A DNA stretch of 64,000 nucleotides from Branchiostoma floridae (lineage: Eukaryota; Chordata; Leptocardii; Amphioxiformes; Branchiostomatidae), in the NCBI RefSeq assembly GCF_000003815.2, contig NC_049989.1:9372761-9436760 (forward strand). Reading direction: 5' to 3'. Within the stretch, counting starts at the first letter, position 1, and the number at the start of each line of letters is the position of its first letter. The notes beneath the pieces were generated by a model. The model was not told where the DNA came from. It saw nothing but the letters and a program-made list of their open reading frames with translations, and ran no database searches. Below are positions 1 through 55,592 of the stretch, in pieces. The translations under genes and the position numbers were made by a program.

Positions 1-3000
1 ATGTCGGCGGCAGGAATGGAAATCTTCGTGGTCAATTGTAATGTCAAGGTCAAGATCTGTGTTACTAACTTCAGAGGTATGGCTAGCCCATAATGTAAAC
101 AAATCTTGGAAGACCCTTTTCAATTTCCCCAGCTTGTAGTTCATCCACAGTTCACGCAGTCCTTCCATGACTTGACAAGAGACAACGAAAACGATGCTTC
201 CAGATTCTAGGTCCTTAACTGTTGTGCGAGCAACTGGCCAGTGTGAGATAATTTGTTTTAGCGTTTTTCCATTTTTCTCTACAATAGTGATGCGAACCTG
301 AGGGTCTCCTGCAAAACATAGAACGATATAAATGTAGAGGCACAATATTCCAACGATAGATATCCCATAACTTGCTTAGCGGATTAGCCTACGAATCATT
401 AATGCACCGCAATTTTCATTTCAATATATGTAGATGACTTAAACCAACAACATGATAAGTTTGATGATTATTGATGCTTTTTAATGGGGAAAACTGTAAA
501 CGTAGATGCAGCTAACCTTCAATTGGTAGTATTACATAAAGACAGACCGTGTGCTCAAATCTATGTCGTGAAGAGGTCGTATTTCAAGCGTTTTTTCTTA
601 GACCACACCATATTCAATATTCATTTCAGACTATAGCTATACTAAGTTATACTGGAGATGTGGTAACAACTGTCTTATTTCTTGTAACAATAATGGTTTC
701 TTACCCAGTTCCAATCGAAGGCTGCTGATGTCCTTGTCTCTGTTATGTGTTGTCACACGGAAGCGACAGGTCCCATTGTGCGTAACTTTAACCGTGCACT
801 GTAGCGTTTCTGTTCTGCAGTATTCCTGCCATCTACTGTGGATGTTACCATCTGCATAGTCACACATCTCGATGATATATTCATAGGAAATTGGGGTGTC
901 GTAGTCGTCATCTGGTAAAGGTTCTTTCCATATAAGGGATACTGACTCTTCTGTGATGTCTTCGACTTTAAAATCCCGTGGTGGATATGGCTGATCTGTT
1001 GACAGTTTGAACACATTTATTGATTATGAATCTTCAGGGTATATACATTATACAATTTGTTTTGATAGATATCTTTCTTGTATTGGCCATCATAACATTG
1101 CTCTGATAAATGAAATTTAACCTGAGTCAATACACTTACTAAAATATTTCTCAGCTATCTTACAACACTTGAAAGATGTATCTTGAGAATGTTTTATTTA
1201 GTTTACAGACTCAGAAAAAATTGCATTATTACTGTACATACAATTGGTTCATTAATTTGCAGATTTTTATGCTAATGAAAATATTGCAAATTTCTGATTG
1301 ACCCTTATGCTCTCACCTCACTTTACCAAATGTTTAAATCAAAATGCTATAAACCCATTGTGCTATATGACGAGAATTTCTAACCGAGGCGACTATGCAT
1401 GGAAGGACGTACTTACTTGTATATTATGCAGTGTCCTCCTTTCTATTGCTAGTCGAGGAAAGCGCCTTTAGCGATAATTGCGTTTCCAGGGCATAAGAAT
1501 CCCTTTCCCCCTGTTTCCTGCAAGTCCCTGGCTTCACTGAAGTTCGGACATATTTAGTACCGCTACCGAGATCTTCCGAAGCGATGTCGGTTGTGTTCAG
1601 TAACGTTTCGGCCATCACCGTTCGGAACGGCTGCCGACAGGTAAGGGACATCTCCGAATGCTGTCCTATATGGCGACCCAGTAGTGAAANNNNNNNNNNN
1701 NNNNNNNNNNNNNNNNNNNNNNNNNNNNNNNNNNNNNNNNNNNNNNNNNNNNNNNNNNNNNNNNNNNNNNNNNNNNNNNNNNNNNNNNNNNNNNNNNNNN
1801 NNNNNNNNNNNNNNNNNNNNNNNNNNNNNNNNNNNNNNNNNNNNNNNNNNNNNNNNNNNNNNNNNNNNNNNNNNNNNNNNNNNNNNNNNNNNNNNNNNNN
1901 NNNNNNNNNNNNNNNNNNNNNNNNNNNNNNNNNNNNNNNNNNNNNNNNNNNNNNNNNNNNNNNNNNNNNNNNNNNNNNNNNNNNNNNNNNNNNNNNNNNN
2001 NNNNNNNNNNNNNNNAGGTGACATTATTGAACATTAATTATGCAAATGAGGACTTGATTTCAATCAATTATAAAGAAAAATATTAATAATAGCCTTCTTA
2101 CTTAAGATAGATTGTGTACATCTGTTGTTTGGGTGTAGGAGATAATCAAACAATATACTAGTAAGTTTTGCAAATGAGGACCTTACTTGCATAATTAATG
2201 ACAAACACACATAATCCACATGATACATAATACGTAAAGGTCTAAATCGTTTGGGGAAGGTATGGGGTCTTGGAAATCTAGTTATGGTTATAACATACTT
2301 AGCTCTTTTAGGCGATCGCTATTTCTGGTGGAAATATTTCACTTCTATCAGCAAAATACTCACATTGCTCCTTTGCCACAACATTTTGGAGTTTGCATCC
2401 AGGATCGCTGCAAAGTAGGTCACCCTCGTTGTTGGTCACTGCTGATTTCACACAAAAGTCATAACTCTCATAAGGTTTGACTTTGTCTACTGTGAAGTTT
2501 GTGATTCTAGGACGTAATACAGGTTTTGGGCTATGTACTGATGTCCAAGTGTTTTCAAATGCTGTAGAACGTTCTAAAAGGTAACCATAAAGCCGGTTTG
2601 ATTCCACAGGAGTCCACTGTAGCTTTATGCCATCAGTTGTAGTCTCTACAGCTTCAAGTCTGTCTGGAGCCCTTGGGTTTTCTGTAAGATGTTGTAAACA
2701 GAGTTCGGTCAATCAAGGAGGTTATATCACCTGTGATATAACCTCCTTGGGTCAATATAGTCTTACTACACTCTGCAGCTGCAGCTTAAAGGGGATTGAA
2801 AGCTTCAACATCCTGTAGACGTAGCATCTGACCTTCTTGTATCTGTCCTTCTTTAATTTGATAGGATGGGTAATAGTTGGAACATAGGATGAGGCCTTCT
2901 ATCGGGAAATGGGGTTGCTTCGCCCACAAGGGGGTTTCCAACTTTCCTGCGCAACGATATTGGCCAACCCATATTAGGCGAAGACCAATCATATAGACTG

Positions 3001-54833: not shown

Positions 54834-55592
54834 GTCTACACGTCTGGGCTGGGAAAACTTGTGGGCGGTTTGGAGAACTTCTTCAACTTCTTGTCAAAGT
54901 TTCTCACGGTTCGGTTCAGTTAACTTATGGCTAGCAATTCGTAAGATTATCAAACAAAGCCCCTAAATCTGAGAAAAGCAGAGCACTGATGGATTCCAGC
55001 TAGAGCTAGCTTTCTACTTCCCCAATGCCTAGTTTTCCCCGGGAATTTTATATTTGAACAACTTCCGGGTTGTGGGTGAATCTGACCTCGGATGACCTAA
55101 GACGAAACCATCATTGTAAATTAGGGGTGTAAGTGAAAAATAGTTAGCTATCTAATGTTTACCAAATATGTTTATATCCCATCGTTTTGATGACATAGAT
55201 ATTATGATTACTTACAATGAAGTTAAGTTGTATGTGAAGACCATGTTTTTGTTTTGGCAAAGTAGTTTTAAGAGTAGAAATCCAACCCCATTTTCAAATG
55301 GACTGTTCCTGGGCATTCAGCATCTGAGACCATTTCTACAGTCAGTAACAGTGCCATGCCGATCAAAGCAAGGTCATGCAACCTCCTTGATCAAAGCTTT
55401 CGGAGATAAGGATTTCTAGAGGAAACTGGATGATTTTCAAGACGATACAGTATCAAGTAAGGCTCTAGAAATCCTACAAAACTGTAGAATCTTGAGCGAA
55501 CGTTGAAAAAAAATAGATTGGGGGTGGGGGGGATTTACTTTAAGTTCAATTTAGCTTAGTTGAACACTTCTTGCAGACAAAGAGGTTCAAAT
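54834..55592. promoter_or_regulatory. putative bidirectional promoter, SWAP70 and ETFBKMT
   Basis: About 760 bp separate the two divergent start codons. The 5' UTR exons and transcription starts of both genes must lie here; an acceptor (CTTCTTGCAG) at 55566-55575 precedes the ETFBKMT coding start, so that gene has a 5' non-coding exon. No TATA box stands out. A micro element sits at 55362-55396. Confidence 0.5.
55362..55396. mobile_element. micro element 7 with 7-bp direct repeats (ATCAAAG)
   Basis: 21 bp at 55369-55389, beginning CAAGGTCATG and ending AACCTCCTTG, lies between ATCAAAG copies at 55362-55368 and 55390-55396. Confidence 0.75.

Follow-up and report, generated by a model that had tools for sequence, protein, structure and literature searches.

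Seven very short elements in a 64-kb stretch of Branchiostoma floridae DNA are probably the scars left behind by the excision of a DNA transposon of the P-superfamily type. This stretch, the window, lies at C11:9372761-9436760, and over a thousand look-alike sites are present in the 513-Mb genome. Excision footprints are a known kind of product; here they are natural, genome-wide and found nearly without donor elements.

All seven of the elements named in the original prediction are present, each with a perfect 7-bp direct repeat on either side and each with a core that starts with CAAG (in one case TAAG) and ends with CTTG. Their cores, all within the 14 to 36 bp that had been described, measure 36, 28, 36, 22, 35, 14 and 21 bp in site order (coordinates are unstranded). 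In the first footprint (2707..2756), the duplication GGTCAAT at 2707-2713 and 2750-2756 encloses a perfect hairpin with 17-nt arms and a 2-nt center (2714-2749). The core of the second (30476..30517; duplication TTGAAAG; core 30483-30510) is palindromic except for two bases and has AATATT at its center, and in the third (33145..33194; CCTAAAC; core 33152-33187) the right arm is 4 bases longer than the left. The ends are unequal in the fourth (33742..33777; CTTGAAC; core 33749-33770) and the seventh (55362..55396; ATCAAAG; core 55369-55389). The fifth (39744..39792; CTTAAAC; core 39751-39785) carries the variant tip CAAGGAGCTTTTATCA, which is also found at L032:2333 and L011:4588, and the sixth (53795..53822; GCTACAT; core 53802-53815) is a perfect palindrome. 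Two parts of the earlier description needed narrowing: the ending said to be shared by most cores, AACCTCCTTG, terminates four of the seven, and among the "several" perfect hairpins two are perfect (2714 and 53802), while the one at 39751 is perfect except for its first base (T versus C). The window also holds two tandem arrays (29004-29897, 288-bp unit, 3.1 copies; 50161-50772, 60-bp unit, 10.1 copies) and an innexin-like open frame at 12824-13816, for which all six listed matches are from Branchiostoma and three of the six carry PF00876, presumably the innexin family.

Duplications of this kind are not expected by chance, as had been claimed. When we scanned the window for tips with up to one mismatch per 5 bases, cores of up to 60 bp and exact flanking repeats of length k, seven sites were recovered at k=7, compared to 1, 0, 1 and 0 at k=5, 6, 8 and 9, and 60 order-3 Markov simulations of the window yielded one match in total (mean, 0.017). 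The repeat signal is real and centered on 7 bp. A scan blind to tip sequence, in which 7-bp repeats flanked any 4-bp inverted tip, returned CAAG as the commonest tip (6 of 37 matches). The density of footprints in the window was seven per 64 kb, compared to four per 160 kb in a fixed-position sample (L021:2219, L028:394, L038:3867 and L037:4945), a count that includes L038:3867 although the low-complexity rule of the scan had removed it, and L037:4945, with a duplication of 8 bp and not 7.

A genome-wide excess over controls was found. The tip CAAGGAGGTT occurs 5603+5523 times genome-wide, against 422+400 for its reversed control. Exact CAAGGAGGTT...AACCTCCTTG pairs number 1192 at 20 to 36 bp and 390 at 37 to 67 bp genome-wide, with a control count of 0 in both ranges. 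Since only one of the seven window cores has both 10-bp tips exact, 1192 is a lower bound. A single duplication, GTTAAAC, flanks both sides of a core at 19 places in the genome (7+12; control, 0); these 19 cores are 14 to 37 bp long in a scan that permitted up to 38 bp.

We then have a measure of duplication among tip pairs not selected for it, drawn from 335 kb made up of the window and other stretches, some of them chosen for their tips, after removal of nine overlapping loci. All pairs of inward tips 12 to 120 bp apart were taken in which at least one tip lay within one mismatch of the 10-bp tip (n=161), a rule that the sixth window footprint fails, so that it lies outside this set. Among pairs 12 to 36 bp apart, 18 of 46 had a 7-bp duplication (15 exact and 3 with one mismatch); among those 37 to 120 bp apart, none of 115 did. 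Two further short pairs, L014:4534 and L037:4945, had an exact 8-bp duplication. The claim that the sites arose by insertion, with 7 bp of target duplicated, has good support. The duplicated bases show a preference (n=16), with T at position 2 in 11, A at position 6 in 13 and C at position 7 in 10. Palindromy of the duplication was not significant (16 of 48 base pairs versus 12.2 expected; p 0.13) in a sample that includes the doubtful L032:3177, a 13-bp core inside a simple-repeat stretch.

Cores become much less frequent beyond about the length of two tips (18 to 19 nt each), although the limit is not sharp. Counts per length were scaled from the matches listed (50 of 1192, from C1, and 50 of 390, from C1-C2, on both strands). 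Among these listed matches, the scaled mean was approximately 70 per length at 20 to 36 bp, with single lengths ranging from 0 (at 23 and 30 bp) to 262 (at 29 bp); the scaled counts were 86, 55 and 62 at 37, 38 and 39 bp, and the means then fell to approximately 17 per length at 40 to 44 bp, 6 at 45 to 49 bp, 3 at 50 to 59 bp and 5 at 60 to 67 bp. Of two 37-bp cores that we read, one forms a perfect hairpin (arms of 18 nt, center of 1 nt), and in the other the arms disagree in their last bases. Two features of the distribution count against excision scars. Among the matches listed on C1, the modal length is 29 bp (11 of 50), and nine of these 11 read as 19+10 with no obvious microhomology, a class that such scars leave unexplained; and 24 of the 50 matches listed above 36 bp have cores of 40 to 67 bp, a tail that exceeds two tips plus a few bases. 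One of these longer cases is a 15-bp scar adjoining a lone tip (L011:3390).

The tips themselves recur at separate loci. Judged by eye and without statistics, CAAGGAGGTT is followed at different places by GAAAAGAG, GAAAGAGG, GAAAAAAG, AAAAAAGA or AAAGAAAG, and recurrent tips agree for about 18 to 19 nt and diverge by base 19 to 23. No interior sequence common to different loci was seen at the tips in the sequence examined, overlapping loci aside. At L017:6583-6641, two footprints lie head to head in a palindrome with 25-bp arms and enclose GTCAGAT ... ATCTGAC, an arrangement that looks as though a scar had been copied back on itself along with its duplication.

These sites probably arose as follows. 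An intact element whose ends are of the CAAGGAGGTT type would insert and duplicate 7 bp (sometimes 8) of target. Its own transposase, which we take to be of the P type, would later excise it by a long stagger, cutting one strand at the edge of the element and the other about 18 to 19 nt inside, and both chromosome ends would keep 3' tails of transposon-end sequence. End joining of tails that were filled in, trimmed or annealed at microhomologies, at times with a few bases added, would make the core, and the resulting scar would consist of the duplication, up to about 18 to 19 nt of each element end and the duplication again; two filled-in tails would give hairpins. The drop above 36 to 39 bp, and the agreement of tips by eye over about 18 to 19 nt, lend the proposed long stagger indirect support. 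The original prediction had offered products of excision and hairpin resolution that keep the tips of the terminal inverted repeats; excision is supported, and hairpin resolution gives way to the joining of long 3' tails.

The closest described counterpart is P excision in flies. In Rad51-deficient Drosophila melanogaster, the P{w-a} end-joining junctions tabulated in PMC2895639 (Table 1) retain the 8-bp duplication and a tail of at most 17 nt per side; the same source describes microhomologies, insertions of 1 to 15 nt and some junctions with almost no tail. According to PMC7776569, the cut made by P transposase is staggered by 17 nt and lies 17 bp in from each end. Read as scars, the amphioxus footprints share with these fly junctions the flanking duplications, tails up to full length, trimming, short microhomology, small insertions and palindromic products. 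They differ in being natural sites, with more than 1000 exact tip pairs, 7-bp duplications and predicted tails of about 18 to 19 nt, whereas the fly junctions are laboratory events at one locus in animals lacking Rad51, with 8-bp duplications and 17-nt tails (CATGATGAAATAACATA). That the stagger would measure 18 to 19 nt, and not the 17 of P, counts against a P-type origin. Galileo, a Drosophila member of the P superfamily, has 7-bp duplications and three copies with 8 bp, according to the data given in PMC4168063 (see also PMC2775673). The 7-bp duplications seen here, with two cases of 8 bp, fall within the lengths of the superfamily (8 bp in P and 7 bp in Galileo), and a target preference is likewise common to both (Galileo consensus, GTATTAC or GTAGTAC); Galileo copies, in contrast, are still present as elements and have long inverted repeats, whereas amphioxus keeps tips only. 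The zebrafish THAP9/Pdre2 system also involves a P-type transposase, and its excision loses end bases, but it has an 8-bp duplication and CATACCTG ends (PMC10983969) and is not linked to the amphioxus tips. A suggested relationship to Dada fails, as Dada elements are described as inserting into small RNA genes and as having no terminal inverted repeats (PMC3706591), whereas inverted repeats are present here. The link to the P superfamily, which had been called speculative, is now the best supported, and it is still by inference that we take this assignment to be the most likely.

A P-type transposase is present in the genome. An annotated gene at C19:10310203-10314469 (L032) encodes a 1012-aa P/THAP9-type transposase with PF21787 ("TNP-like, RNase H N-terminal domain"), PF21788 and PF21789. 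The THAP domain is absent from the precomputed Pfam list of this gene, a result that concerns the C19 gene and not the enzyme that cut the scar sites; the list does contain PF12560, which we take to be the RAG1 importin-binding region. A piece of this transposase is 100% identical to B. floridae LOC118406544, a Branchiostoma lanceolatum protein named THAP9 is 64% identical over 72% of the C19 query, and a PDB sequence search with the piece gave no match. On C11 (L033) a relative aligns along almost all of its length and contains at least one stop; other contigs hold further fragments, several with stops. The fragment scan gave at least 46 matches with 45 of 212 candidates scored, some of the matches being weak and others representing several exons of a single gene, and a family search for the P-type transposase gave three matches. 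The C11 locus contains four exact tips in 9.9 kb versus 0.2 expected (P 7e-5), and the C19 locus contains none. Around neither transposase did we find a tip pair with a common 7- or 8-bp duplication that would delimit a full element, and the region of the outer C11 tip (L033:683) is single-copy. Because of these last two results on C11, the connection between tips and enzyme is one that we infer. The full-length element with these ends and a transposase that had been suggested as a target was not found in the 335 kb or at the C19 and C11 loci.

With no transposase tied to the tips, the footprints might instead be excision scars of a cut-and-paste element from outside the P superfamily, hAT-like or undescribed, whose ends are CAAGG and whose cut has a long stagger. 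The hAT end motif is YARNG, which CAAGG and TAAGG also match. In hAT elements, however, the duplication is usually 8 bp and the footprints are short and lack long end tips, whereas the duplications here are mostly 7 bp and the tips are long, a combination that suits the P superfamily; we consider a non-P origin improbable.

The original prediction had raised another possibility, that the elements are extreme internal deletions, 14 to 36 bp long, themselves mobilized in trans. The perfect 7-bp duplications would be expected of such insertions, and so would identical cores at separate loci: among the 50 matches listed, 16 cores share six sequences, and although 12 of the 16 are palindromic, four are not and represent two 29-bp sequences. 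These repeated cores count against excision scars. Nevertheless, 40 of the 50 listed cores are distinct, numbers fall above 36 to 39 bp, a drop at odds with the wide spread of lengths that deletions should produce, the 115 tip pairs 37 to 120 bp apart contain no duplication, and a transposase could hardly pair ends 14 bp apart. Mobilization of the micro-elements themselves fits poorly and seems very unlikely. Repeats of 7 bp around 4-bp inverted tips do arise by chance (31 of the 37 k=7 matches have tips other than CAAG), but as an explanation of these sites chance direct repeats within repeat-rich sequence are refuted by the counts (7 versus 0.017 expected, 1192 versus 0, and 19 versus 0 for GTTAAAC).

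No intact copy with these tips was found in 335 kb, which counts against the excision reading. A scan of 8044 tip pairs 60 bp to 9.8 kb apart, in which the duplication had to be exact except that one mismatch was tolerated where both tips matched, returned two matches, one of them a pairing of two separate window footprints. The other, at C1:5043517-5043854 (L009:1518-1855), looked at first like an intact 338-bp MITE-like element with a one-mismatch duplication. Its interior, however, recurs without the tips (44 matches, including the query itself), with 18 of the 44 spanning query bases 49-324, one spanning 26-324 and the rest covering parts of 49-324. The motif ATTTA occurs at bases 18 and 325, and collapsing the sequence between them gives a 31-bp core. 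Judged from these alignments, the candidate is probably a scar of 31 bp into which an unrelated repeat of about 300 bp has inserted; the edge of that repeat is approximate, since most copies begin at base 49 and not 18. MITEs have homologous interiors, typically of at least 100 bp; no interior shared across loci was found in the sequence examined apart from this unrelated repeat. The P-derived MITEs of Anopheles described in PMC1562414 are likewise short and keep P ends and duplications, but they are hundreds of base pairs long, with family-wide interiors and 8-bp duplications, whereas the amphioxus sites have no interior. Two tip pairs on C1, each 3.7 kb apart, were also rejected. The first (L010) has unlike flanks, and its right tip is part of a 24-bp core (L010:6144) whose duplication contains one mismatch; the left tip of the second is part of a 19-bp core (L017:6617).

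Among the first 100 exact tips on C1 (5.1 Mb), 34 lie in pairs less than 60 bp apart. The other 66 show no inward excess at 60 to 10,000 bp (4 inward, 8 outward and 11 in the same direction). At 10 to 20 kb the pairs are few (5 inward, 2 outward and 4 in the same direction), and with inward pairs somewhat exceeding outward ones, elements longer than 10 kb could exist. Scars outnumber intact copies, at least for exact tips and below 10 kb. Donors may be rare, missing from this assembly, longer than 10 kb or equipped with different tips. We also joined the flanks of footprints (16 in one round and 20 in the next) and compared them with the sequence examined in the same genome. A match spanning the junction was obtained only for L011:3390, from which the 15-bp scar had been removed; it is messy, 77% identical and without a neighboring 9-bp tip, and as an empty site it is suggestive only.

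That scars so outnumber donors is a surprise. In flies, most breaks that P excision leaves are repaired by full or partial copying back, and end joining is one of the outcomes described in PMC2895639. One explanation, which we put forward tentatively and regard as unlikely, is a "ghost" P-like transposon whose insertions are removed almost always, so that its activity is recorded nearly only as scars. Excision might then be a regular step in the life of the element, taking place in early development, say, or in the germ line of each generation; reinsertion would maintain copy number, and repair would favor end joining over copying from the sister chromatid.

No report of such scars in amphioxus was found in the literature searched, which did not extend to subscription papers, and the published P scars that we found described derive from assays. 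If the footprints are indeed excision scars, at least 1000 natural sites would record how an amphioxus lineage repairs breaks with long 3' tails, by microhomology, filler and trimming, with no experiment needed. Such scars would reveal past transposon activity likely missed by repeat annotation, for which longer copies are needed, and their length limit would allow the cut position of a transposase to be read from genome sequence alone.
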